Assembly (NCBI GenBank): GCA_001600635.1 | Contig: BCKL01000007.1 | Location: 210,303-274,302 of the forward strand | DNA length: 64,000 nucleotides | Reading direction: 5' to 3' | From: Leucosporidium creatinivorum | Lineage: Eukaryota > Basidiomycota > Microbotryomycetes > Leucosporidiales > Leucosporidiaceae | Part shown: piece by piece, positions 5,717-56,833 of the stretch | Layout of the letters: every line of letters starts with the position of its first letter | Position numbering within the stretch: position 1 is the stretch's first letter | Made by a program: the position numbers and the translations under genes | Notes under the pieces: generated by a model | The model's database searches: none | Told to the model about the DNA's origin: nothing | What the model saw: the letters and a program-made list of their open reading frames with translations, nothing else

Positions 5717-8700
5717 ATGGTCTCCTCTTCCCGCACTTCCGCCTCGGGCTTCTCCCTCGCAACCCTCCTCGTCGCCTTCGCTTGCCAGCTCTCCCTCGTC
5801 TCTGCCGCCGTCTTCACATGTACTGGGTAGGTTGTTCTTCTTGTTCGATGTAAGATGGCATTTGATGAGTGAGGGGGAGGCTGCAGGTTGCTCTTCGCCG
5901 ACTTCGGCGATGCCTCGATCGCTTATGAACTCAGGGCTTACCTTGCGCATCTCGCCTACAGTGGAACGGTCTACGTTGTAGCACACGCCGACGATGATCT
6001 TCTCGTAGGTCTGGTGTAGTGTGGTGCAGCCTCCCCATATGCTGACCTTCCCTCGCCTGCAGTTCCAATCCCCCGACCTCCTCACCGACATGCAGAGCTC
6101 CAAGTGCGTTACCACGATCTTCCTCTCTGCCGGAGAGTCTGGTACCACTGGCGACTCCTACTACCGCGCACGGGAGAGTGGGAATGAGGCTGCCACCGCC
6201 CAAATGGCCGGCGTTGCCGATTCGTACTCCGAGCTGACCGCCATCTTTGGCGGTCAGCCGGCCCTGGTTCGTACTCTGGTCGGCGCACCACAGGTTCAGA
6301 AGGTTTGGCTCCGCTGCCCCGACGGTGACGTTCCTGGAACTGGTGAGTGACGTTCCTTTCCCCTCCTCCCGAGCGCCGAGAGCTGACTCGTCCCTTCGCC
6401 CGCCGCAGGATTCGCCGTCAACAACTACCAGACCCTACGCGCCCTATACTTTGGCTCCATATCTACCATCACCAACAACCCCGGCACCGCGACCTACACT
6501 CTTGCAACCCTCAAGCAGACCATCGCCGAGATCCTCACGGCGCGCCAGCCCGACAACGTTCGCACGCTTGACTACCTGTCGGACTACGATGGAGGAGATC
6601 ACTCGGATCATCTCACCACTGCTCGTATTGTCAAGTCGCTGGTCGGCACTTACGCTCCTAACGCTGGAATCGCTGGCGTGAGTTGCGCTCCCTCCTTCTC
6701 CTTCTCGCCCTTCACTGACATTCGGGTCATCCTTCGCAGTACATGGGCTACCCTGTCCAGGCGAGTATTTGAAGTAGCAAGCCTCCTCGCAGCTCCCGCT
6801 GACCGAGTTTGACCCTCACAGAACTTCGCCCCTACGATGGACACCGGCTCGTCCAGCTTCCTCGGCAAGACCGCCGCCTTCTTCTCCTACACTCCCTACG
6901 ACTCGGGAGAGTGCCAGTCCTACGAGTCGTGCTTGAGCAACGGCCGCGGAGAGGCCTGGTGGCTCACTCGCCAATACGTCGTCACCCCCGAGCTCGCCGA
7001 GGCCTCCTACATCGGATCGGCGCAAACGCCCGTCACTCTCCCCAACAGCACCAACATTGCTCGCATCGCCAAGCCCGCCTGCTCCTCCGAGGGATCGCTG
7101 CAGCCTTGTACCGCTGGAATCGATGGAGTCGTCGGAGGCTACCCTGGAAACTACGCCGTCGAGTGGTCGAGTAACGCCGAGACGGTCGGCGCGACCTACA
7201 CCCTTACCTGGACCACCCCCTACACCATCACCGACGTCGCCCTCTACGATCGTCCCAACCAATACGGTGAGCTTTCGTCCGCTCTCGGCGCTCGGACTTG
7301 AAGCTGACCTTCGGCTCTCTGACAGACTGGATCAAGGCTGGAACTCTCACCTTTGCCGACGGCAGCTCGGTCACCTTTGGAGCTCTTGCTAACGATGGAT
7401 CCGCCACCCTCATCAACCTGATTACGCCCGTCATCACCAACTCGGTCAAGCTTACCGTCACGGCCGTCTCGGCTTCCACTGGCAACGCCGGACTCGCCGA
7501 GTTCCAAGCGTACGGAGCCATCTGCTCTGGATGCGCCTTCAACTCGACCACTTCCGCCTCGACCCTCACTTCAACTGGTTTCGTCGCCGGCAACGGAGCC
7601 TTCTCGGACCTCGCTCTCCAGGCCACCGCTACGGCTTCTTCGTACTCGACTGGACAAGGACCCGAGAAGGTCAACAACGGACTTATCGGCGGCTACACCG
7701 ACGACGACCCTTCCAACTACATGAACGAGTGGGCTTCCAACGGCGAGCTCGTCGGCGCTTGGATCAACCTCACCTGGCCCGCCTACTACATGGTCGACTC
7801 GCTCATCTTCTACGACCGCCCCAACGATGGCGACTGGGTCACTGGAGGTCACATCGACTTTGACGACGGATCCTCGGTCAACGTTCCCGCCCTTCACGAT
7901 GACGGCTCGGCGACCATCGTCAACCTCACCCAGGCCGTCAACATCTCGTCGCTCCTCTTCACCGTCACGAGCGTCGGGCCTTGGTCGAACTCAATCGGAC
8001 TTTCCGAGATCTCTGTCTCTTACTCGCAGTGAGTCTTGTTGGCCTCGGCGCTGCTTCTCTTCTTTCTTCAGTCGCTAATCTCGACCTTTCGTAGAGCTCA
8101 AACTCCCGTCAACATCACTGCTCCTCTCTACGTCGCTACCAACACCACCATCACCGGCAGCAACTCGACTACCGCCATTCCCACGATCGACACAACTTTG
8201 GATCTCGCTCTCAACTCCACTGCTCGCGCCTCATCCTACTCGACTGGCCAAGGACCCGAGAAGGCCATCGACGGCAAGATCAACGGCTACAAGGAGAACG
8301 GCTCGGGCGACTACACCACCGAGTGGGCCTCCAACGGCGAGAAGGCGGGAGCCTGGCTCAACCTCACCTGGCCTGCTCCCATCGCCGTCACTCAGGTTGT
8401 CCTCTACGATCGTCCCAACCTTTCGGATCGCGTGCTCGGCGGTACTCTTACTTGGTCCGATGGCACTTCGAGGAAGTTTGGCGCGCTCAACGCCGACGGC
8501 TCGGCGACGACCATCAACCTGTCGAACCAGGTCAACACCTCGTCGCTCCTCGTTACCATCACCAGCGTCTCGTCGACTACCAACTCGATCGGACTCGCTG
8601 AGGTCACCGTCTTTGGTCCTGGTGCTCTGTAAGCTTCCTCTTCTGTCCCCTTCGGCGCCGAGCTCGAGCTGACTCGTTCTCTCGCTCCAAAGGGCGAACA

Positions 8701-10768
8701 ACGTCACCTCCACCTTCACCAACTCGACCACCAGGTGAGTTTCTCGAGTACACGACTCCCTCTTTCCTCGCCGAAGCTGACCTCCCCTTCTCTGATCGCA
8801 GCGCCAACGCCACGAGTACTTCGACTTCCCTCAACTCGACCGTCTCGGCTACGTCTACGCTCAACTCGACCCTCTCGGCGAATGCCACGGCTACCAGCAC
8901 CCTTTTCAACGCGACAGCCTCGGCGACTGGCCTCGCCAACTCGACGTCCTCCCTCCTCAACTCGACCATTACCGCCACCTCGCTCCTCCCCTCGGCGACT
9001 CTGAACTCGTCGAGCATCGCCAGCTCGTCCCTCGCCAACGCTACCTCAGGCATCGCCAACGCCACCTCGACCCTCGCCAACGCTACATCGACCCTCGCCA
9101 CCGCCACATCGACCCTCAACGCGACCCTCCCCGTCGCCACCGGACTGAACGGAACGGCGACCCTGTCGGCCAATGCTACGCTCCCTACCCTCTCGGCCAA
9201 CATCTCGCCGAACGCTACAGCTATTCTATCGGCCAACAGCACTCTTCCCACCCTCTCCAGCACCAACTTGACAGGCATCCCCGCCTCGGGATCTGGCTAC
9301 TCGACCATCCTGACGAGCAACACGACCTCCTCGAGCGCCTCATCGTCAGCTACTGGTTCCGCCAACGCTAGCTCGAGTGCACTTCCCTCGTCCTCGGCCA
9401 ACGCGACCTTGAGCGCCCTCCCATCGTCTTCGGTCAACGCCACCTCGAGCGCCCTCCCCTCAGCCTCGGCGAATGGTACCTCCAGCGCGGTCCCTACGAC
9501 TTCCGTGAACAGTACTAGCTCTTCCCTGGCTTCGTCAGCCGCCAAGTCGGCTTCAGCCTCGGCCAGTAGCGTCTCGAGCGTTGTGTGAGTTTTCGGTCGC
9601 TCTCTCGGACGGCGAACAGCCGCTGATCTGTCTTCTCGTTTCACACACAGCTCCAGCATCGCTTCGGCCAATTCCTCTTCGGCATCTTCTGCCGCCAGCT
9701 CAGCGTCCAAGGCCTCGTCGTCGTCCGTATTGGCCAGCATGTCCTCCGTCAGTTCGGCAGCTAGTTCAGCCTCCAGCGCGGCCTCAAGCTCGGCCTCCGT
9801 CAACGCCTCAGCCGCCAGCGCCTCTGCAGCATCGGCCTCCTCGGTGGCCAAGGCATCGGCGAGCTCCGCCTCGGTCGCTGCTCAGAGCTCCCTCTCGGCG
9901 GCGGCTCAAGCTTCGGCGAGTTCCGTGGCTCAAGCTTCGGCGAGTTCCGTGGCTCAAGCTTCGGCGAGTTCCGTGGCGGCAGCCAGCAGTGCCTCCGTGG
10001 CATCGGCTAGCAGTGCTTCTGTGGCTTCCGCTTCGTCCGCCAGGTGAGTCTTCTCTTTTCCTCAACTCCCGCCGAGCTCGGCTGACCTCCTCCCTCTTTT
10101 TCATAGCGCCGCCAAGGCCGCCTCGTCAACCTCGATGGTCGTGACCACTCGCTCTTCGTCTTCGACTCTGGCATCCTCCACCGCGGTCAAGCCCACCAGC
10201 ACTGGACTTCCCACCGCCGCAGCTCAAGCGACGGGAGTGAACATCGCCCTCTTCGGAACCGCTACGGCCTCCTCCTTCCGCACCTCATCGCCTCCCAAGG
10301 GAGTCAACGATGGAGAAGTTGGTGGTCTCTCGATGTGGGGTCTCGGCGACGCCTCTACCGAGTGGTCGACTGGCAACAAGAACTTGCCCGCGTGGGTTCA
10401 GCTCAACTTCACTAGCAACGTGAGTTTTCGACGCTCTGCTTCGACCTTCGCGGCTCGACAGCTGACCTCTTCACCTGCAGTACCTCGCCAAGACCATCTA
10501 CCTCTTCGCGCCTGTCAACACGATGAACACGATCAACGCCGGCACCCTCCTCTTCTCGGACGGAACCTCGCTCCCCGTCAAGGCGGTCTCGAGCAGTGGA
10601 ACCGCCGTCCCCCTCGGTCCTGCTGGCAAGACGTTCAGCTCTGTGCGCTTCACCATCACCGACGTGGGCATGCTCGGCAGCGCCGTCGGCCTCAGCGAAA
10701 TCAAGATCTTCAACGCTGCCGCCAAGACCTGTAGCTTCCTGCAGCCCAACTGTCTCGTCTCATTGTAG
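5717..10768 (+). CDS. Large secreted PIG-L/LmbE-type deacetylase with galactose-binding-like repeats and Ser/Ala-rich linker
   Basis: About 13 exons and roughly 1,400 aa. A signal peptide (residues 1-30, FSLATLLVAFACQLSLVSAA) is followed by a PIG-L/LmbE domain (about 38-300) that carries the metal-binding motif AHADDD (residues 44-49) and the second motif HSDH near residue 200. PIG-L enzymes remove the acetyl group from GlcNAc of GPI precursors or related glycoconjugates; this secreted version more likely acts on wall or extracellular polysaccharide (inference). Three similar domains follow, each with an EWSSN/EWASN...LTW...YDRPN core (7130-7520, 7600-8030, 8200-8630), resembling F5/8C-like galactose-binding domains often found with fungal secreted PIG-L. 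Then comes a 500-residue Asn/Ser/Thr then Ser/Ala-rich stretch with dozens of N-x-S/T sites, and a fourth, more divergent galactose-binding-like domain (10230-10740). Introns include 5827-5961, 6005-6062 and 6761-6821 (GC donor). There is no GPI signal at the C-terminus. Confidence 0.85.
9904..9978 (+). repeat. 24-bp perfect tandem repeat, three copies, in coding sequence
   Basis: Three head-to-tail copies of a 24-nt unit (CAAGCTTCGGCGAGTTCCGT plus GGCT), encoding AQASASSV three times in the Ser/Ala linker of the PIG-L protein. The copies are identical at the DNA level although the surrounding Ser/Ala codons vary, so the expansion is recent. Confidence 0.9.
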
Positions 10769-11091
10769 AGGTGAGTTTTTGATTCTCTTCTGTGTCTCTG
10801 TAGCCCTTGCTGACTCGTCTGCTCCCTCTGCAGTTCGTTTTGAGCTCGGCTCGGTCGTTCTCCTTTCCTCGCATTTAGTAGCTGTCGTTCGCACCCAACC
10901 CACTGTCCACCCCATTATGTAGCCCCCACTAGCATCTAGATACCACCTTTCTATCAATACATGGAACTCAACCACTCGTTCACTATCTACACGCCGAGAG
11001 CGGGCGAGCAGCGAGTCGACCGAGCTCTCGTTCTCGATTTGACAAGTGCGAAGGAGAGAAGTCCTGGAAGTTGGACGTGAAGTTGGACGTC
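10769..11091. other. 3' flank of the PIG-L gene
   Basis: Directly after the stop codon, 10770-10832 looks like another intron (GTGAGT...GCTGAC...CTGCAG) in the 3' untranslated region. The remainder shows no coding signal. Confidence 0.4.
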
Positions 11092-11243
11092 GGTTCAGAA
11101 GGGCTTCGCTGCCCCGACGGTGCTGTAGATGGAACTGGTGAGTGACGTTCCTCTCCCCTCCTCTCCAGCGCCGAGAGCTGACTCGTCCCTTCGCCCGCCG
11201 CAGGATTCGCCGTCGAGGACTACCTGACGCTATCACGCCATGC
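11092..11243 (+). pseudogene. Duplicated fragment of the PIG-L gene (exon-intron-exon)
   Basis: This stretch matches 6296-6440 of the PIG-L gene closely across the end of one exon, the whole 67-nt intron and the start of the next exon. Shared landmarks are GCTGCCCCGACGGTG, GGAACTGGTGAGTGACGTTC, GCGCCGAGAGCTGACTCGTC and CCGCAGGATTCGCCGTC. Because the intron is included, the copy was made at the DNA level, not through RNA. Flanking bases diverge sharply on both sides. The exon part carries an in-frame disruption relative to the parent, so it is a non-functional scrap about 400 bp downstream of the parent's stop. Confidence 0.85.
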
Positions 11244-11563
11244 AGTCGCTGCTTCGCGTAGAGCTTACTGGTGGCCATCTAGGCAGCTCGACAGCAAAAG
11301 TTGGGGACGAGGGTAGGGAGCAGATGATGAACGCCGAGGTTGCGAACGGCGAGTGGGTTAGAAGCTGCTGAGCCGAGGCGATCATGGGAGTAGGCTCTCA
11401 CCTCTGGAGTACCCTCGTATCACTGCTGTTGCGATGTAAGACCTAGCGTAGGGCCCTTCCCTGCTAGCCGCCTCTCCTGCTGCACCCGTCGACGCTCCAA
11501 TGCTCCTTCGTTCTTTCCTCCTCTCCCCGCAGCGCTCCGATGCCCTACATTCGAGCTAGCGAG

Positions 11564-12500
11564 GAGGTGAAGACTCGTTTTTAGACCTCACTACACATCT
11601 AGAGATCACCGAGAAGCCCACAGCCTCGAGAGCTGCAGGAGAGGGAGGACTTGTAGCGCGCCTCCCGTCGACGCTTGAAGGTGAGAAGCACTTGCTCGCG
11701 GCTCCTCGGTTGCGAAAGGCCGCTGTGTGAGCAGCATCCTGTAGGTGTGCACCACTAGGATGGTCTAGGTCGGAGTGAGAAAGCTATAGCGGTCTTCCCA
11801 TCGCTAAGGAGGAGCATAGGGCAGCGAGCTCCTCGGGCGCTCAATCTCAGTTCGAGCTTGCTCAGCAAAGAGCAGGCTGCGAGAGCTGTTGGGAGGCTTA
11901 AAGCGGTCGTCCCAGGATCGTGAGTGAGATTGCTCCCAAGCGCTACAAGAGCGGGAGCAACTGCTTCTGCGATCCTTCGCTGAGAGAGGTTGGAGGTCGA
12001 CGAGCACTTCACGCGAGGAAGAGTCGGGCCTTGATCCAGGTGGCAGAGCCCTTTCCAGAAGGCCTGCACTCACACGAGCGAGAGCACCATGCTTGAGGAT
12101 GCTACACGCAACGACCACTCAAGGAGGATGTGGCAGGAGAGAAAGAGAGAAGAGGGCGAGACGGACTCGATTTTGAGCTCGCCGGGCTTGGACTCTCTCT
12201 CCATTCTTCTCCTGAACGATGGGTTACAAGCAGCGGGTCGAGTACAGCAGAGCTCCATGTCACTCGTTGAACTACAACTTGACTCTGCAGCGACACAGAT
12301 CAGGCTCGAGAAGGGCGAGCCGAGCTACCTCTCTTCGCCGAACTCGGAGGGGGTGGCTCTCGCACTGCACGGCAGGCGTCAGAATTGCAGAAACGAGCTC
12401 AACGTTATTCATGATATCTATAGTGAGGAAGCGAGACCTCGATACCCCCCAGCAAGACTCGCCTTGAAGCTCGGCGAAGTTGGGAAGGGGGGTCGGGCGC
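11564..12500 (+). repeat. Dispersed repeat, copy A (inverted relative to copy B at 52.7-53.6 kb)
   Basis: About 940 bp that matches the reverse complement of 52672-53615 over nearly its full length. The central 500 bp is most alike (for example GCGCGCCTCCCGTCGACGCT, GCGGTCTTCCCATCGCTAAG, CACGCGAGGAAGAGTCGGGC, GCTACACGCAACGACCACTC). Both ends are more divergent and fade near ...AAGCTCGGCGAAGTTGG. I found no terminal inverted repeats, target-site duplication or recognisable transposase or polymerase. A short peptide, MLEDATRNDHSRRMWQE, is preserved in both copies (at 12089 here). The element is best called an unclassified, decayed interspersed repeat or a segmental duplication. Confidence 0.8.
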
Positions 12501-12729
12501 GCTGCTACCGCCCGCAAAGGCTACAGCGGGCTGCGGTGAAGCTCCGGTAGCTTTGATTGATATCTGTGCACAAGGCCAGAGCAAAACCCTGCTAAGCTGT
12601 ACCGACTCCATCCTCACAAGGTCGCCTGCTTCGACTCGCTTTCCTGGCCTCCCTTCGCCATCACTCGCTTTCGCTGCTCTCTCGACTCGCTCGCTGGACT
12701 TGACAGTTACGAAGATCGCTTACGCACCG

Positions 12730-14279
12730 ATGGCTGCTTTTGAAGGTAAGCTCCTTCCCTGCACATGCCAGCCCGCCCCACGCGCATACTTCCTGACGCA
12801 TCTCTTCCCTCGAACAGGCTCGACGCTGGCCGGCGACGCTAATGGGAGGAAGGACGAGCTTGCTACTGCTGAGAAGGAGGATACGAGCGGGGCGTCGCAG
12901 AGCCCCGAGCCGCTGTACGTCTGCGAAGCGAGCATGGGAGCTGGAGGAGCAGACTGACGCTGCGACTCCACTACAGGCCCAAGAAGACGCTGCTCTCCCT
13001 CCCCGACGAGCTGCTGAGCGCCATCGCTGGGCTCACCGAGCGCGTTGAGGATCTCAAAAACCTGCAGCTCACGGCGAGGCGCTTCGGCCTTCTCTGCAAG
13101 TCGTGGATCTGGAGGGAGGTCACCTTCGACGAAGAGTACACACATCACGACATCTTGATGGCACACCTGGTCACCACTTCACTCGCTTCCCTAGTACGTT
13201 CACTCCATTACGTCCTGCCCTCGCCCTTCTCCACGATGTCGGTCGTTCTCCTCACGACAAACTTCACCAACCTCACCGACCTCACCATATATCCCAACGA
13301 CCAGTCCCAGTCGGATGACGAGGAGGATCATGGACGTGTCCCGAGAGCTCTCACCAGTGCCCTCAAAGCGCTTCCCGCCCTACGCTCACTTAGGCTCGGC
13401 GCTTTCGACCAGCTCGAGGACACGACTTTCTCCATCGCTGCCGAGCTCCCCAATCTCATCTTCCTAAACGCCAAAGACATCACCCTTCCCCACTCCCTCT
13501 TTCACAGTGGGCCCACGCTTCGCTCGCTCGAAGTCTGTCTCAACGACGTCGCCTGCGCTGCCATTGGCGCATGCGCTGATACGCCCCACTCGCTGATTCT
13601 CCTCCGTAATTACGTAGATGGAGAGAAGTCTGCCAGCCAGGCCAAATGTCTCGATCAACTTCGCCGCCTCTTCGAGCCCATGGTAAGCCTCGAGGCGGAA
13701 GCGAGATGAAGGAAGCCGTGCTGACCCCGAGCCTTTTTCTGCAGAGCCCCAAGCACCGTACCCTTCCCCTCCAATCCCTTTGGCTCCAGCACTTCGAGCT
13801 GGTGCAAACGGACGACAGCATCACTCGATCTCACCCTGAGCTGTGGGCCTTCCTCTCGGCGTTTGAGGGGACTTCGCTCTCGACCTTGCGCTTCACGGGG
13901 TTCGAAATAGTCAAGTGTTCGGCCAACGCCGATCTTCAGCTTGGGCTCTCCCTGCCTAGCGTTCAGGCCTTGGAGTTTGCTGCGTCGTCCAGCGCATCGA
14001 AGACTCAACTGGACAACGTAAGCTTCGCGCCTCTCGTTCCTGCAGCTGCAGCAGAATCTTACACATCTCTCATCACTACAGGACTCCATGCTCTTACTTC
14101 GGTCCCTTTTGCGATGCTTTCCCAACGCCAACCATCTCGCTCTCGGAGGCTGGATCAACGCTTGCGAACCACACAAGCTGGTGTCGCTACAGTCCCTCGA
14201 GCTCGGCATCTACAGCCCCGCCTTCTACCTTCTACTCTCGACCCTCTCCGCCAAACTAGCCTTGTCGAGATCAAGCTGA
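12730..14279 (+). CDS. F-box/LRR-like protein, probably frameshifted near its 3' end
   Basis: Exons 12730-12745, 12818-12914, 12977-13682, 13745-14017 and 14082-14279; spliced 1290 nt, 429 aa. After a short variable N-terminus the F-box reads LPKKTLLSLPDELLSAIAGL with a following W near residue 75; F-boxes bind Skp1 and recruit targets to SCF ubiquitin ligases. The rest is a series of irregular leucine-rich segments (LPALRSLRLGAFDQL, LPSVQALEFAASSSA, PNANHLALGGW). It is a paralogue of the gene at 26196-27753 with introns at matching places near the 3' end. The frame closes at a TGA at 14277, but a neighbouring frame from about 14252 continues with SLVEIKLTGGWTWRKKIVRL to a stop at 14365. That looks like the natural C-terminus, so a single-base indel near 14252 (mutation or sequencing error) is likely. 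Confidence 0.75.
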
Positions 14280-31953: not shown

Positions 31954-32353
31954 AGAACGCCCCATCCCTCTTCCTCATCTCAACGATCGCCCATCACATC
32001 ACATGCGGCCCTAACGAGCAATTTCCCCACCCCCGATACCCTTCTACGACAGTTTCCCTCTTCTCCCTCCCCTTACCCAAGTCATACTTTACGACCCCCT
32101 CCTCGCTACACCACCAACCCTCTTTTTCCCTTCTGTTATTCCCTTTCCGTTCGCAATTGAGCTCTGTGCCCGCCCAACGACTCGCCGGACTGAGGTGACG
32201 AGAGACAGCAGAGCTACGGCGAGCTCGCTCGTAGGAACGCGCTCGTGGGTTACTTTACATGCAGAGCTACAGCGAGATCCCTTCGGTCCCCGCGACAACG
32301 ACAGCCTCCCTCCAATCTCAGCGCTCGGCTCGCTCGATATCGTGCTCGCCTCG
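31954..32353. other. Intergenic region between convergent septin and Cys-rich genes
   Basis: 400 bp; no feature recognised beyond CT-rich sequence after the septin stop. Confidence 0.4.
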
Positions 32354-33665
32354 TCACTGCTTCCCGTCGGTCGACTTGGAGCATACACCAGAAGCGTTGG
32401 AGCGGTAGCCCTGCATGACATGGGAGAAGATCGTCAGCCTCTCGTGGCAGAGCTGAGAGCGATTCCGCCGAGCCCAGCCTCGAGCGCCGAGCTCGATGTC
32501 TTCGAAAAGGCAGACGTACCGACTTGCAGCAAGTCACCGGCTTCTCTGAAGGACTCTCATGATATCCCGACGAGCAGCGCATGTGACAGCCGGTGCCGGG
32601 GCTCGTGTAGCGAAGGGTATTGCCATCGGTGAAGGTCTCGACGCTGGGAGGGAGGGAGGGAGGGCGGGAGGCAGGACTGTCGTCAGTAAAGTACTAGACG
32701 CCGAGCAAGCAGAGAGAAAAATACTCACACATTCCTGCAGTACGACTCGGAGCCATTGGCCTTGGGTTTAGGGCAGACCTTGGCCGATGCTCCTGCCGCC
32801 GAGGCCGAGCTGGCGCAGCGGCATCCGTTGTCTGTAGCGTAGTAAAGTGACTCGCCCTATGGACACGGTAGAGTGTGATTAGATGTGGACCGTCAGCCTG
32901 CCAGCTCGCTTTTGTAGGCGACGGAAGGAAGGGCAAGCAAGCAGCGCCGAGGATGTTAGCGCCGAAGTGAAGACCTACCTGACGACAAGAGCCTGAGGTG
33001 ATGGTCCCTCCGCCGGTGAAAAGGTCTTGACAGCTGTTCACGCCGAAAGCCCATCAGCGCCTTTCTCAAGGCGCAGAGAGAAAGCATGGCGTCAAGCTCG
33101 GCTCACTAAATCGACCTCGCCCCCGGGCTCCCCGCCTTCCTCGAACAAACACCACACTTCGCCGTCCTCGTGATCTGCTCCCCAGCGCCATTGAAAGTCG
33201 AAGCAACCTGACAGATAGCCTGCCCCGCGATGGGAATGCCCTGCTTTGAGCAGGCAGTTACCGGAGCACCTGAGGCCTGCGACGGATCGGCAGGTCGAAG
33301 ACAGGTGCAGGTGGGCTTGCCGTCGCTGTTGAAGGAGGTGCCGACGACGAGAGTTGTTCCGCCTGGACTGTGGGTGCAGAAGTCCTGTAGATGAGGAGGA
33401 GGTGAGCGCTGTGGAGCACGAAACGGCGAAGGGGCGGAGCTCGGCGATTGTGAGAAGGCTGACCTGGGTGATGTAGAAGTAGGATGTTGCTTGTGGAGAG
33501 AGTCAAGGAGTGACTATTAGCTTATTTGTGAGGTCCGGACAATGGGAAGGAGGACGTACAACCGCCAACAGGAGTGGCAGGAGCCGTTAGGGTCTGAGCC
33601 AGCGCCGAGCTCGAGAGCCAGGCGAGGACTGCGCAGGAGAGTAGTGGGAAGGTAGAACAGCGCAT
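32354..33665 (-). CDS. 18-cysteine secreted protein (copy 1 of tandem pair)
   Basis: About six exons, roughly 270 aa. A signal peptide (MRCSTFPLLSCAVLAWLSSSALA) is followed by a mature chain with 18 cysteines. The order and spacing are almost the same as in its neighbour at 34275-35578: STSYFYITQDFC, KPTCTCLRP, TACSKQG, QAICQVAS, KCGVCSRKAGSPGARSIYC, GSCRQ, GCRCASS, KVCPKPKANGSESYC, TGCHMRCSSGYHESPSEKPV, TCCKS and GVCSKSTDGKQ at the end. The introns fall at equal places. An even cysteine count and a compact Gly/Ser-rich chain suggest a disulfide-rich extracellular protein. No GPI signal. I recognise no named family. Proposed roles (wall-associated protein, effector-like) are inference. The last three exons are the most alike between the two copies. 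Confidence 0.75.
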
Positions 33666-34274
33666 GATTGATGAGGTAGAGGGGAGAAGGAGAGGGGCAG
33701 GTATTCGAGAGAAGTGGGAGTGAGCTGCAGGATGCTTCCCGGTCAGCCTTGGCGAAGGGGAGCAGGATCGAGGCCTGGCGGGCCCACGGAGAGAAGGAGA
33801 AGGAGAGATCCACGAGTGGCAAGGACACAAATAGAGCAGTCTCGTGTATATCTAGCCGTATAGAGTAGCGCGCCCTCCCTTCGAATCGGCGCCAAGGCTA
33901 CCGAGCGCGCGAGCTCCGAGCCCCGAGCTCCGCCAGTCCGAGCACCGACGACCAAGCGGGAAGCCCTCGTTCCCGTAGAGTACAGTATGGCCATAGAGCG
34001 CAGAGGTAGCTCGATACTAGCAGAGCGAGATCGGTCCCGAGATGAGATCCGCCTCTTCAAAGATGGATCGGATCAGGCCGCAATTTGAGAGCCGAGCTGC
34101 AGCGCCGACTCCCCCTGCCCTCGTTTGGTCGACAGCCGACACTGACTGGTCAAGTATGTATTTGTTGCTTTACTGTACATTCTACAAGGTTTGATCGAGC
34201 CCGAGAAGCGCCTCGCAACACCCATCGAACGCCCTGCTCGACGCTCAACTGAGCGCGGCCCTCCGTCCACACCG
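33666..34274. other. Spacer between tandem Cys-rich genes
   Basis: 609 bp. It contains the promoter of copy 1 and the 3' end of copy 2. No gene or RNA is supported. Confidence 0.4.
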
Positions 34275-35578
34275 TTACTGCTTCCCATCCGTCGACTTGG
34301 AGCACACGCCCGACGAGTTGGAGCGGAATCCCTGTAGCGCGAGCACCAGGGGCATCAGTGCTCTGTGCGTATGCAGAACAGGCTGTCTGAAACCGACGCC
34401 GAGTCTGAAGCGCCGAACTCGCCCAGTCGAAGCTGAGTGGACATACCGCCTTGCAACACGTCACCGGCTTCTCCGAAGGACTCTCATGAAATCCCGACGA
34501 GCAGCGCATGTGGCAGCCCATGATAGGGCTCTGGTACTGCAAGACATCGCCATCGCTGAACTGCTCGACGCTGGAGTCGAGCGAGCGGGGGAGGGAGGAG
34601 CGTGAGTTACCGGGGAGACATACGAGTGAGAGAGAGAGTGCCCAAGCGACGCACATGTTCCTACAGTACGACTCGGAGCCGTTGGCCTTGGGCCTGCGGC
34701 ATTGCAAGGCGCCGGGACCTGCCGCCGAGGCCGAGGTCGCGCAGCTGCAGCCCGTGGTCGGGGTGTAGTAGAGTCCTTGACCCTGGAGATAGATGGAGGC
34801 ACAATGTGTGTGTCAGTCAGCTTCTTAGCGGGCTGTGCTGGAAGAGATAGAGGGGCAAAGCAGCCTTCGCCGAGGGGCGGCCGCGGTGGGCAATCCTGCT
34901 CGAAGCTCCACCGAGATCCTGGAGCCGACTTACTTGACGGCAAGTGCCCAAAGCAATGCTGCCACCACCGGTGAAGAGATCTTGGCAGCTATTGAGGTCG
35001 GAGAGAGATGGTCAGCCATCGAGGACGAAGAAGATGAGCAGACAACAGCTCGGCTCACTGAATCGACCTCGCCCCAGGGCTCCCATTCCTCCGGGAACAA
35101 AGTCCGCACCTAGCATTCCTACTGAGCTGCTTATCCGAGGCATCAAAAGTAGAGGAGACCAAGCAGATGGTCTGTCCAGCGGAAGGCTTGCCCTCGGCGG
35201 AGCACTCGGTGCCGGGGTTCGAAGGTGTGATGCAGGTGCAGGTGGGTTGCCCGTCGCTCTTGAACGTTGTACCGAGCTTGCTTCCTGGAATTGCACGGGA
35301 GCAGAGGTCCTGCGGGTGATGGAGAGGTGATAGTCAGTCGAAGCTAGCGAGGGAAGCTCGGCGAAAGCGAAACGCCTCACCTGAGTCTGGAAGAAGAAGC
35401 TGGTAGCTGCGGTAAGAGTGGGAAGGATATGTTAGACTTGTGATATCGGGAGGCGGAGGGGAGAGGATTGCTTACAACCGCCCACGGGGGTGGCAGGGGG
35501 CGAAAGCTGCGCGAGCGCCGAGCTGGCGAACCAGACGAGAGCGGCGCAGGAGAAGAGTATGGCGGTCGAAGAGTGCAT
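34275..35578 (-). CDS. 18-cysteine secreted protein (copy 2 of tandem pair)
   Basis: About six exons, about 270 aa. The ATG at 35578 starts a signal peptide (MHSSTAILFSCAALVWFASSALA) and the mature chain begins QLSPPATPVGG. All 18 mature cysteines of copy 1 are present: STSFFFQTQDLC, QPTCTCITP, TECSAEG, QTICLVSS, RCGLCSRRNGSPGARSIHC, GTCRQ, GCSCATS, QCRRPKANGSESYC, MGCHMRCSSGFHESPSEKPV, TCCKA, GVCSKSTDGKQ. Identity is highest in the ANGSESYC and HMRCSSG(Y/F)HESPSEKPVTCC blocks and low in the linker before TCTC. Gaps between cysteines are conserved within one or two residues. The two genes lie head-to-tail with no gene between them, so they arose by tandem duplication. Confidence 0.75.
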
Positions 35579-35947
35579 GGCAGGTGTGAGAGAAGGAAGA
35601 GAGAGTGTCGAGCGTCTCTTAGCACGATGGAAAGGAGGTGCAGATTGCTTCCCGGAGAGTCTTGGCTGAGTCCGAACTGGAGATCTGGAAGGCCAGAAGA
35701 GGCGAATTGAGAGACGAGAGCCCGAGGAGCTGCACTGCAGCAGCAGTGGTCGAGTCAGGTGCACTCCTCTGTAGCTCCCCGCCACCCTTCAGCCGCTCTT
35801 GAACTTCGCCGAGGCGGGAAGCTACTCCCCTCCGACTCCGAGGACAGATCACGAACGAATTGCACAGAGCGATTGAAGGGTACAACGAAGAGAAACCTAG
35901 AAGTGACCGAACCTGCAGTCTGTATCCACCCCAGCTCACCCTCCCGC
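35579..35947. other. Intergenic spacer
   Basis: 369 bp between the start of the second Cys-rich gene and the stop of the gene at 35948. No feature is supported. Confidence 0.4.
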
Positions 35948-52421: not shown

Positions 52422-52671
52422 CGCGTTGAGCGGTTTGTGAGGTGTACAGAATGTTTGACAGCTTTCGCAGGGCATTGTAGAGAAGCCAAGAGTCTTCGTT
52501 TCAATTGCGACTGATGAGACGAGCGAGCAAAGCCTTGAGAGCGAGGTCGATGATTGTTAACGGCGAAGCCTATACAGCTGAGCCGTGCGGCTTCTCTAGA
52601 GCGAGTATAGAGACAATCAAAGCTATTGCAGCTTCCTACAGCGCTCTATGCCCTTGACGGCCGCTTACAGC

Positions 52672-53615
52672 TAGCCGACCCCTTTGCCAACTTCGCCGAG
52701 CTCAATAAAGCGAGTCTTGCAGCAGAGCTTCAGGTTCTCGCTTCTTCGGTATAATGCCATTGTGCATCTGAACACCCGTCAGGGAGGTCCTTGAGGCCTG
52801 CAGCTCAGTGCGAGAGCCACCTCTTCAAGTTCGGCGAAGAGGCTGAGGTAGCTCGGCTCGCCCTTCTCGAGCTTGATCAGGGTCGCTGCAGAGTCAGGCT
52901 GTGGCTTAAAGAGTGGCATGAAGCTCTGCTGTACCTGACCGGCTAACCTCTAGCCCACCGTCCATGAGAAGACCGGAGTGTCCATGCTTGGCGAGTTGAA
53001 AATCGAGCCCGACTTGCCCTCTCCTCTCTTGCTCTCCTGCCACATCCTCCTGGAGTGGTCGTTGCGTGTAGCATCCTCGAGCATGATGCTCTCGCTCTTA
53101 TGAGTGCAGGCCTTCTGGAAAAGGCTCTGCCACTTGGATCAAGGCCCGACTCTTCCTCGCGTGAAGCTGCTCGTCGACCTCCAACCTCTCTCAGCGAAGG
53201 ATCGCAGAAGCAGTCGCTCCCGCTCTTGTAGCGCTTAGGGATCGGTCTCATTCACGATCCTGGGACGACCGCTCTAAGCCTCCCAACAGCTCTCGCAGCT
53301 TGGCTCCTCGTCGAGCAAGCTCGAACTGAGACTGAAGCGCCCGAGGAGCTCGCTGCCCTTTGCTCCTCCTTAGCGATGGGAAGACCGCTATAGCCTTCCC
53401 ACTCCAACCCCAGGTCATCCTAGTGGTGCACACCTACAGGCTGCTGCTCACACAGCAGCCTTTCGCAACCGAGGAGCCGCGAGCAAGTGCGCCTCGCCTT
53501 CAAGCGTCGACGGGAGGCGCGCTACAAGTCCTCCCCCTTCTGCAGCTCTCGAGGCTGTGGGCTTCTCGGCGGTCTCTAGGTGTGTAGTGAGGTCTACAGG
53601 TGAGTCTTAACTTCC
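52672..53615 (-). repeat. Dispersed repeat, copy B (inverted partner of 11564-12500)
   Basis: The reverse complement of this segment matches 11564-12500 over about 940 bp, with the strongest likeness in the central 500 bp. It shares the MLEDATRNDHSRRMWQE reading on its minus strand (from about 53084), and the longer frame around it is disrupted. Its outer ends fade near AAGCTCGGCGAAGTTGGC-like sequence and near GGTCTACAGGTGAGTCTTAA. No transposase or polymerase is seen. Confidence 0.8.
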
Positions 53616-54957
53616 TCGCTGGCTCGAATGTAGTGCAGCGGAGCGCTGCGGGGAGAGGAGGAAAGGGCGAGGGAGCGTTGGAGCGGCGGAGGGTGCAGCA
53701 GGGAAGCTGGGCAAGCAGGGAGGGCTGTCACTCAGCAGAAAACAGCTCAGATACCATGGAGCTGACCCTCGCCTGTCGTTGTAGTCGCAGCGTCGTCGAC
53801 TGTTCACTCCTACGCTCGGCGCCCGTTCACTCGACGAGGCAAGTCCCTCTCGCTGCGCCCGCCACTCCCTCCTGTCCACCCCGAGCGTTGGAGCTTTCAA
53901 GTACAGCCGACTGTCGGGATGAGCTTCGAGAGCTATGGGGTTTGGGAAGGCGAGGGACGAGGCTTGCTTTCGCCGAGCCATGAGCGAGTGTTCGAATTGA
54001 CGCTTCGCCCGGCGAGGCGAGGAAGCTGATGACTCCCGAGAGTCCCCGACCACGCCATCATAGCCTGTTGCTGCGTCGGGTCGCGCTCTACGCTTCGGCT
54101 GAGGGGATTGCGGAGGAGGGAAGCGGCGGGCCTTTTCTCCTTCCGCCCAATCGAGCGCTGACCTCTCAACTCTGCCGATGTTCTCACTACCACGCTGCCG
54201 ATGAGCTACAGAGGGGCATTAGCACCCGTGATCCTACTGCACAGGTGATTCAGCTGTCATTCTCTAGCTTGTCAGACGAGGAGCGCGAGGCGAAGCTGCT
54301 CGCCGACTCCGAGCAAAGGTTGGCGCTGTCACCCTAAAGGGGAGCTCTTGCGTTGCTTGGCGGTTCGTCGCGGCGTGGAGGTGGTCTGAACGCAGTATTG
54401 GGGACGCCGAGATTGCTCGAGGTGTAAGACAGAGAGCAAGGGCAGCTTGGCGGTAGAGCGACTGCTCCGCAGAGCTCGGCTCGAGGGGGGGACATGCTAC
54501 AGGCTGGAAAGCAGCCCAACAGAGCTCTGAAGGAGCTGTAAGTCGATCCAGAAGCTCTCCGTGTCCTTCTGCGAGCTGCGTGACTGGCAGACAGCGAGAA
54601 GATGGTGCTCGGCGCAGCCAAGCAGTAGGCTCGCTCGAGTGGTCCAAAGGGCTTGACCGAAGAGCCGAGGGTTGAAGTGATCTTGTAAGGACGTCGAAGC
54701 TCTCCCCTCTCACTGGCGCATGTAGCCGAGTAGACAGACCTACAATTGACCATTAGTCTCGAGGACTAACTCGGCGCTTACTCGATTCTTAATCCGCTGC
54801 TTCCCAAAACGCCCGACGTGTTCTGCGAGCTCTCTTTGCTTCCTCGTTCATCTTGCTCGCTCATTCGCCCTCGCCGACGATTCTTCTCTGTTCAAGAAAG
54901 CTGTGTTTGCTGCGTTACATGACCTGCTCGGCTCGCTTCTCCAGCGCAGGGCTCAGA

Positions 54958-55059
54958 NGAGGGGAGCAGAAGCTCGCATCGCCTCTTCGACTCGNGCGAT
55001 TCGCATGCGATGTCNANATGTAGTGCGGTACNNTTTAACGCTCTTCNAGCCNACTTGNN
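54958..55059. other. Tract with ambiguous bases
   Basis: Ten N within 102 bp (54958, 54995, 55015, 55017, 55032-55033, 55047, 55052, 55058-55059). They mark a low-quality stretch or disagreement between haplotypes. Confidence 0.9.
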
Positions 55060-55731
55060 GAAGAAACCGGGCGACCGCTTTTCGCACAGGCCCCTATCGC
55101 TCGGTGCAGTATCCGATCTCGGCGAGGGGCTTCGGCGGAGCAGGAGGGCGCTGAAGGAGGTCTGGTGAGCTCAGAGAGACGGTGAACGGATAGATGGACG
55201 CTCTCGTGGTTTAGCAGAGCTGGCCAGCTTGGGCAGGATGCGCCGTCGTCGTCGCCGAAATCGAGGGAAGAGTTCTGCTGGGCCGAAAGACTGGCAGAGG
55301 CTCTCTTTCGACCCTCTCAGCCAGCCAGACCACCCTCGTTTACCTTCCACAGTCTGCCAAGAGGCTGCTGTGGAGGTGGGAGAGGACGCAGAAGAGGGGG
55401 ACTCGCAGACGAAGGGCTCGGTCGGAGGTCGCCAGGCAGCTGTGAGGTCTCTAGGGATGCTACTGTACCCCTTTTGACTGGTACTACTCCTATGGCCCAA
55501 GCTCAATGACCAGCCATCTCTCAGCGGCTCTCGGAGGATGCGACAGGGCTACAAATTGACGCTCGGCCAGCTCGACCTCTCTTTCCTTCCTACTTTTCAC
55601 TGCTCTCTTGCTCCGGCTCGCTCATCTCAGCGCTACAGCCCCATCGTCTACCAGACTACAGCGCTTCACCTCACACTAGTGCACCTCGCCTACCACCCAC
55701 CTCACCACCTCGCACCTCGCTGTGCTCCAAG

Positions 55732-56833
55732 ATGGCCCTCTCCAAGTCGCTCGCCGCTCTCTCGTCCAAGCTTCGCTCTAAGGTCGCTCGCCAGAGTAGC
55801 AGCAAGATCACTAGTATCTCGGCACCCTACAGCCTGAGCAAGTTGATGTCGCCAGCCCTCGAACCGGTAAGCTTCGTCCTTCTCGCTCAGCCACATTCCT
55901 CGAGCGCAAAAAGTCTGACCTCGCTTCTCCTTCGGCTCACTCGCGCAGATGTACGACGACAAGCTGTTCGCTATCGAGCTCTGCAACCCTTCCGCCCCTC
56001 CTCGCCAGCCTGCCTTCCCCATCAAGCACAAGGTGCAGCTCCCCAGTCTCGACGCCGAGCAGCCGCAACCCGCAACTTCGCTCTCGGCTCAGCAGGCTCA
56101 GGTCGACAGCCCCTCTTCCACATCCGAGCTCTACGACATCTCCAGCTACTCGAACGTCGCTACCTCGGAGCACCACCTCCGCAAGGAAGTCCTCCGCTGC
56201 AGCACTCCCTCCGAGCAGCTCTTCTCGCCCTCGGCGCCCGCCTCGCCCAACACCTCTTCTCGGTCGACTCGCACTTCCTCGCCCATCTTTGACTCGGTCA
56301 CCACCTTCGAGATCGTCGACTCAACCACTCCCCTCACCATCAGCGAGGACCGGTTCACCGACCTCCCTCCTCGTATCTTCCCTCTCCGCCGCACCGCTCG
56401 CGCTGAGCTCAGGGTCGTCGCTACTTCAACCGTCAAGGAGTCTACCACCACCACCTCGGACCCCTTCGCCACCCTCTTCAGCGGCCCGTCCCCTTCGTCA
56501 TCCTCCAACTCGCTCGCCAGCCTCGCCAGCTTCGGCGACCGCCTGCCTCTCGTCAAGGACATCGAGTCGGGTCTCGCTCGCATCGGATGCGTCAACGCCC
56601 AAATCCCCACCACTATGAACACCGGCGTCGACACCCTCTTCGCTGGTCCCTCGCCCTCCAACTCGGTCAGCTCGCTCGCCGCTCTCGCCTTCGCCGACCG
56701 CACTTCGCTCAAGGGCGACATCAACATGGGAGTCGTCAGCATTGGGGAGGTCAGCAGCTACCGCTCGAGGGCACTTCCCGCTACGCCCATCGTCGAGCAC
56801 GAGGGATGCTTTGCCATCGTCGAGGAGTGGTGA
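55732..56833 (+). CDS. Unrecognised Ser/Thr-rich protein with internal repeat
   Basis: Two exons: 55732-55866 (MALSKSLAALSSKLRSKVAR to SPALEP) and from 55949 (MYDDKLFAIELCNPSAPPRQ), stop 56831. The N-terminus is basic and amphipathic, possibly a mitochondrial presequence. The middle is Ser/Thr/Pro-rich. Near the C-terminus is an internal duplication: DPFATLFSGPSPSSSSNSLA + SLASFGDRLPLVKDIESGLA and DTLFAGPSPSNSVSSLAALA + FADRTSLKGDINMGVVSIG. It ends with HEGCFAIVEEW. No named family. Confidence 0.65.

Follow-up and report, generated by a model that had tools for sequence, protein, structure and literature searches.

What is the pair of long inverted repeats that occupies two ORF-poor places of this DNA: a single duplication or part of a larger family, and, if the latter, a family of what kind? 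In the window, by which we mean the whole 64,000-nucleotide stretch that was analysed (C7:210303-274302), the two copies were joined by one BLASTN alignment, 11455-12559 on the plus strand against 53724-52614 on the minus strand, with 947 of 1,123 columns identical (84.3%), 30 gaps, and an E value of 0.0. The sequence-only reading had placed the pair at 11564-12500 and the reverse complement of 52672-53615 and had described its centre as highly similar; the pair is real, the alignment extends slightly past both intervals, and the central part is the most alike. Similarity between the two copies stops at the alignment ends, beyond which the flanks are unrelated, and long ORFs are scarce at both places in the ORF list of the window. 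Self-comparison of the window at E values up to 1e-5 found no third copy within the 64 kb. The window also contains a direct repeat of about 145 bp (6293-6437 and 11092-11232, 87.6% identical), which matches part of a 172-aa ORF at 10763-11278, and a neighbouring direct repeat of about 1.4 kb (32352-33753 and 34273-35666, 64.6% identical), perhaps a gene duplication.

The genome as a whole (27.7 Mb in 63 contigs, a single genome being searched) holds at least 50 dispersed copies of the family, 13 of which lie on C7, the contig of the window. A protein search with one ORF of the window gave 8 matches at E ≤ 0.001, those with names coming from Rhodosporidiobolus, Sporobolomyces, Rhodotorula, and a Microbotryomycetes species, so a red-yeast-like fungus of the Microbotryomycetes is the likely source. 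Four similarity searches with different query copies, each scoring the best 40 of 50 to 51 candidates, returned copies that mostly diverge from the queries by 11 to 16%. A pattern search of the whole genome for a 24-nt core block, allowing up to 3 mismatches, gave 49 matches, 43 exact and 6 with one mismatch; there were zero matches with 2 or 3 mismatches, and a reversed-pattern control gave 0. The 24-mer had been picked for its conservation in the first 39 copies, and copies beyond 3 mismatches escape this search. Among the 11 copies outside the first 39, six found by similarity also carry the 24-mer and five were found by the pattern alone; the 50th copy, L004, was found by the similarity searches and has a 1-nt deletion in the block. 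All 50 copies were read and anchored on the 24-mer, which lies at 12015-12038 on the plus strand in copy 1 (C7:222317-222340) and at 53135-53158 on the minus strand in copy 2 (C7:263437-263460). Since the copies are mutually related, counts over the 50 are not independent. By contig (n = 50) they number 15 on C3, 13 on C7, 8 on C6, 4 on C5, 3 on C1, and 2 on C2, with single copies on C8, C9, C14, C15, and C30; most of the 63 contigs have one copy or none. The proposal of a dispersed repeat family, made from the window alone, is thus borne out, and the alternative named with it, two copies only with matching flanks, is not what the genome contains, given the family size and the differing flanks of the pair. 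We rejected a two-copy segmental duplication because 49 places carry the 24-nt block with at most one mismatch. A second module, block B, occurs at 27 genome places, 25 of them beside a core; block B matches with no 24-mer match nearby lie at C6:359843-360116 and C9:736864-737135. A scan of IMG/VR with the 24-mer gave 0 matches.

Copy positions are counted from the 24-mer along strand T, the strand opposite to that of the first alignment, which is plus for copy 2 and minus for copy 1. The core common to the copies is about 0.55 kb long in an alignment of 39 copies and spans -170 to +415 from the anchor in copy 1 (11623-12208, minus strand); the C7 copies have longer stretches in common than this core. 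Its rates of change are uneven. Parsimony steps per column in 25-column windows range from 0.44 to 6.44 within the core and reach 7.76 at its edge, a contrast of more than tenfold among core windows and of about fivefold between some adjacent ones, and the 24-mer has 6 steps in total against a mean of 3.1 per column. The core behaves as non-coding DNA, with 82 of the 101 distinct gap runs in the 50 copies not being multiples of 3, no codon periodicity found among 10 C7 copies, and a longest ATG ORF per copy of 48 aa in the median and 111 aa at most, and a protein-coding repeat was rejected on these grounds. A known Rfam RNA was rejected as well, since nothing reached a gathering score in the window or in 6 further loci: Rfam 15 gave 0 matches in the window at curated scores, the 6 matches in 11400-12700 at E values up to 5 all fell far below gathering scores, and the 6 further loci gave 0 matches at E values up to 1. 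A tRNA was rejected, none being detected in the window, and Pol III signals, inspected by eye, seemed inconsistent.

Two hairpins in the core, H1 and H2, are kept in most copies despite sequence changes, as judged from single-copy folds. H2 lies at 53200-53260 on the plus strand in copy 2 and at 11915-11974 on the minus strand in copy 1 (folds and 47-copy alignment), and H1 lies at 53416-53476 on the plus strand in copy 2 and at 11702-11762 on the minus strand in copy 1 (folds and 46-copy alignment). Of the 50 copies, 47 are included in alignment A2 and 39 in A3, the flank patterns having failed for 3 and 11, respectively, and a model search raised the H1 set to 46. In H2 (47 of 50 copies), 90.6% of cells are paired and 8 cells are changed on both sides, a number reached by 5 of 500 shuffles, while the remaining four of its five measures were reached by 14 to 48 of 500. 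H1 (46 of 50 copies) has a covariation score of 0.137, which was reached by 3 of 500 shuffles and is 0.136 after a one-column slide; its outer stem is 66% paired, and two of its measures were reached by 168 and 219 of 500 shuffles. Arm-swap z values are -3.2 for H2 and -1.8 for H1 on T and -2.3 and -1.7 on the other strand; one usable null window reached -2.5, the null series being unusable from column 254 onward owing to N letters. Windowed alifold z values, computed on 26 of the 39 A1 rows, go down to -5.1 on T and to -3.95 on the opposite strand, with two T-strand windows of positive z, and RNAalifold on the non-T strand gave a covariation term of only -0.62. No clear structure was found for block B in 21 chosen copies. 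Two hairpins with modest covariation suggest, but do not prove, RNA structure in the core.

Downstream of the core, splice-type motifs recur on T. Allowing at most 1 mismatch, the 5′ splice site AGGTGAGT is found at +430 to +492 in 39 of the 50 copies, compared with 52 of 1,134 control windows (56 of 1,166 in an earlier control), and many of its variants are of donor type (AGGTAAGT, AGGTGAGC, AGGTACGT, and AGGCGAGT). The remaining sites are each present in under half of the copies: GCTGAC at +590 to +670 in 18 of 50 (58 of 875 controls), a further GCTGA-type motif in 17 of 50 (73 of 1,264 controls), and a donor-type GGC[AG]AGT or GGT[AG]AGT at +680 to +760 in 22 of 50 (21 of 875 controls). Many copies also carry a GCTCGGCGC motif at a near-fixed place, about +656 to +690. 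GCTGACC occurs 62 times over the whole window where 13.4 are expected, an enrichment that fits a branch-point motif. The most over-represented 8-mers of the window among those seen at least 25 times are TCGGCGAA, ATCGCCGA, and TCGCCGAA, seen 27 to 33 times against 2.8 to 3.6 expected, and TCGGCGA is seen 100 times against 19.5 expected; these are possibly promoter or other genome-wide motifs.

Copy 2 (locus L005), whose part matching copy 1 by BLASTN is 52614-53724 on the plus strand, its probable transcript strand, gives a candidate exon and intron model on that strand. The unit would run from a 5′ boundary motif to a second branch-point motif (52830-54163), limits that are suggested by recurrent homology boundaries. 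A first 5′ splice site, AG/GTGAGT, is present at 53598-53605; the putative intron 1 (53600-53784) has the branch-point motif AGCTGACC at 53760 and the 3′ end TGTAG; the putative exon 2 of 54 nt (53785-53838), placed by motif position, carries the GCTCGGCGC motif; and the putative intron 2 (53839-54211) is of the GC-AG type, with the donor GCAAGT, block B inside it, the branch-point motif GCTGACC at 54157, and the candidate acceptor CTACAG. N letters stand downstream of copy 2 at about 54958-55060. The second part, a short second exon with the conserved second intron, is found in about half of the copies. Copy 1 (locus L001), which is placed at 11455-12559 by the alignment, the genome copies, and segment comparison and whose transcript strand would be minus, is among the 11 of 50 copies that have no strict match to the 5′ splice site: GT is missing at the corresponding place, 11573-11580 on the minus strand (AAACGAGT). 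By segment comparison, copy 1 ends at about +584, inside the region of intron 1, and the genome search for block B gave no match there.

With splice signals on one strand, a non-coding core of uneven rates, and modest hairpin covariation, the family seems to be more than an inert repeat. On balance, we lean toward reading its roughly 50 dispersed copies as non-coding RNA genes that are spliced, partly structured, and spread and homogenised within chromosomes. The full unit, about 1.3 kb long, would open with an upstream region in which short motifs keep constant positions, followed by the core as a conserved, hairpin-bearing first exon. Next would come the 5′ splice site and a short intron 1, then an exon 2 about 54 nt long, and finally intron 2, which is conserved and has a GC-AG donor. 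Its copies would be transcribed and spliced, the RNA would be functional, and selection would act on single copies and hold the core blocks unchanged; a local regulatory role for this RNA is a guess.

The upstream end of the unit bears both on this reading and on a different explanation. With 1 mismatch allowed, TTCGGCGA occurs between -320 and -275 in 30 of the 50 copies against 90 of 1,559 controls (52830-52837 on the plus strand, at the 5′ boundary of copy 2; the copy 1 equivalent is 12335-12342 on the minus strand), and it is over-represented across the whole window too. CCGGGAAGTCAGGGCAG, with up to 3 mismatches, stands at -257 to -268 in 20 of 50 copies and had no further match on T within the 144,528 bases of fetched loci. 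Two more motifs, near -190 and -291, are present in 21 of 50 copies each, with one outlying position each and with 16 and 12 off-place matches in the fetched loci, respectively; a fourth upstream word that was tried occurred in 0 of 50. The upstream motifs, which are restricted to about 20 copies, may be promoter motifs. Homology ends at about -257 to -336 in 63 of 604 between-contig pairs and in 27 of 138 within-contig pairs, most others ending sooner, and the flank before TTCGGCGAGCGCTGG looks unrelated by eye in 19 to 20 copies, which come from 8 contigs. At the other end the boundary is variable, at about +584, +640, +918, and +1010 to +1030, as truncation would give, and by eye the ORFs around six copies are unlike one another. 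These homology limits, and the unlike ORFs, favour a non-autonomous mobile element that has a single fixed end, near -295, and moves mostly within a chromosome, in which the conserved parts would be needs of the moving machinery and any transcript would be the element's own. We hold such an element to be possible though rather unlikely, because the copies largely remain on their own contig, those of C7 and C3 moved together with adjoining genes, and decayed copies are missing among the pattern matches, a search that covers up to 3 mismatches in the 24-mer. Inspection by eye of 32 printed rows, 9 of them with both ends, recognised no target-site duplication, Helitron-type end, terminal inverted repeat, A-rich tail, or CTRR hairpin end, and neither transposase nor reverse transcriptase was found by Pfam in 12 ORFs or by eye in the ORFs of six loci. 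The lack of transposase, polymerase, and target duplication reported from the window alone therefore stands within these 12 ORFs, six loci, and 9 two-ended copies. A Helitron had been considered since many copies end in CTGA, and it was rejected, the flanking bases not being constant; with such variable flanking bases and the window-wide enrichment of GCTGACC, a branch point fits the CTGA ends better.

Returning to the reading as RNA genes, the copies are sorted largely by contig. A quick tree of the 50 cores needs 11 contig-label changes, where the minimum is 10 and the shuffled mean is 30.4, and 0 of 200 shuffles were as low. The copies of C7, C6, and C1 each lie on one side of a branch (SH-aLRT 89, 93, and 99, respectively); those of C3 need 4 label changes and those of C5 and C2 two each and so are not single clades. 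Divergence grows with distance along the contig (r values of 0.64 for C7, 0.58 for ten C3 copies, and 0.65 for C6; Mantel p ≤ 0.001), and copies are spaced somewhat more evenly than random (P values of 0.031 for C7, 0.059 for C3, and 0.014 for C6). Sorting by chromosome would follow if copies multiply by DNA-level duplication inside one chromosome and ectopic gene conversion partly homogenises them.

Individual pairs of copies are mosaic. L003 and L007 are 97% alike over -299 to +918, a 1.2-kb tract between unrelated flanks, and the upstream flank of L003 matches L004; L004 and L005 are 0.99 to 1.00 identical over +1200 to +1950 and 0.90 to 0.93 in the core; and L010 and L011 are 1.00 identical in intron 1 and 0.96 in the core. 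The mosaics of the first two pairs would be the trace expected from ectopic gene conversion, and conversion explains part of the sameness, given that non-core stretches outdo the core in some C7 pairs. In L014/L015 and L030/L032, the cores are 93 to 95% alike, the adjoining few hundred bases on one side are 79% alike, and the sequences are unrelated beyond; these two pairs, like the pair in the window, lack the matching flanks of a simple segmental duplication, and some pairs on C7 and on C3 have partly matching flanks. Inverted unit duplicates 10 to 12 kb apart occur at C3:99.0/109.3 kb and C5:1183.4/1195.6 kb (L052, L054, L072, and L029), with cores 98 to 100% alike, and are recent. Together with the 1.2-kb tract shared by L003 and L007, they make it seem that copies recombine with one another. 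The L003/L007 and L004/L005 mosaics would also suit old, functionless segmental duplications whose likeness is kept by gene conversion alone, an account that we consider highly improbable: the more than tenfold variation of core rates by window is beyond what conversion alone makes, and the contig clades all share the 24-mer, with conversion between them looking rare.

Neighbouring genes have been duplicated along with some of the copies. Beside copy 1 lies part of an F-box-like gene (12960-13691, plus strand, recognised through paralogues), which is divergent from the putative transcript of copy 1 and matches PF12937 at an E value of 2.5e-4 with 21.2 bits, below the cut-off of 24.3; this gene part was co-duplicated with some C7 copies. 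With adjacent exon rows merged, 4 of the 9 F-box-like genes on C7 and 5 of the 8 on C3 have a copy within 2.5 kb, against random means of 0.64 and 0.43, respectively. The C3 protein had no match in Pfam and is linked by weak likeness to two C7 proteins. Copy 2 has an orphan gene, here called gene X (55732-56833, plus strand), about 2.2 kb beyond its core and on its strand; the 294-aa ORF of gene X had no homologue at E ≤ 0.001 in a protein search. Matches to gene X, 9 rows in total, fall at 7 places, every one of them on C7, where the gene was co-duplicated with the repeat: five strong full-length places, the one in the window included, lie near same-strand copies, and a sixth does so partly. 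These associations are what would be seen if the repeat were a conserved 5′ leader or promoter of protein-coding families (gene X and the F-box-like genes) and not a gene of its own. This is improbable in our view, as the gene X match at 499 kb on C7 has no family copy near it, gene X was unmatched at E values below 0.5 in six further-read loci on other contigs, and the F-box-like neighbours are oriented differently, all 4 on C7 being divergent and 4 of the 5 on C3 co-directional upstream (the fifth downstream). Because of this difference in orientation, no single gene order accompanies the repeat. Nor did the ORFs of the six further loci, inspected by eye, support the idea of a portable 5′ leader capturing the genes downstream of it.

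The contig clades, the growth of divergence with distance, and a spacing somewhat more even than random would also fit a chromosome-labelling system, in which RNA genes spaced roughly evenly along certain chromosomes, in chromosome-sorted versions, produce local transcripts that aid the self-recognition of chromosomes or chromosome regions, for example in homologous pairing or domain-wide silencing. We regard both the labelling system and these uses of it as very unlikely. The gene X and F-box-like families cluster by contig too, which makes the contig clades less telling, as they may be the ordinary outcome in this genome; moreover, the copies of C3, C5, and C2 do not form single clades, and contigs with one copy or none predominate.

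If transcribed, the roughly 50 dispersed copies would form a set of long, spliced fungal RNA genes outside every Rfam family, whose core blocks are intact in nearly all copies and yet whose versions are split by chromosome. The family offers a test of what maintains such copies, be it selection, conversion, or mobility, and its contig clades and mosaics give a means of measuring how fast and how far ectopic recombination acts within fungal chromosomes. Among the top-listed matches in the open-access literature, we found no report of a comparable repeat family.

Several known systems resemble the family in part. SINEs, MITEs, and Helitrons are non-autonomous transposable elements, and like them the repeat is dispersed, about 1.3 kb long, and protein-less, and one of its ends recurs in a minority of pairs; unlike them, it displays none of the known terminal structures by eye and has no decayed copies among the pattern matches. 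Neurospora and other fungi have dispersed 5S rRNA genes, which share with the present family tens of copies that are scattered and not in tandem, whereas the units here are much longer and their versions sort by contig; with no Rfam match in the window and 6 further loci, the repeat is not 5S rRNA. The GC-rich family of Plasmodium falciparum, RUF6, consists of short RNAs that are made by RNA polymerase III and are tied to var genes. As described in one report (PMC6974570), it is a multicopy non-coding RNA family that lies beside members of variable gene families, and in this description it is like the present repeat, a multicopy non-coding family adjoining gene-family members; however, the units here are about 1.3 kb long, bear splice signals, and only some of them lie beside a gene family. 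Mesosynteny, the shuffling of gene order within fungal chromosomes, is restricted to filamentous Ascomycetes according to PMC3219968. As described there, it would scatter duplicates over one chromosome in mixed orientation, and the repeat and the F-box-like genes are scattered in this way too, although the single genome examined here looks closest to the Microbotryomycetes. By analogy, the GC-rich RNAs of P. falciparum and mesosynteny would thus be parallels of the family described here, not its relatives.
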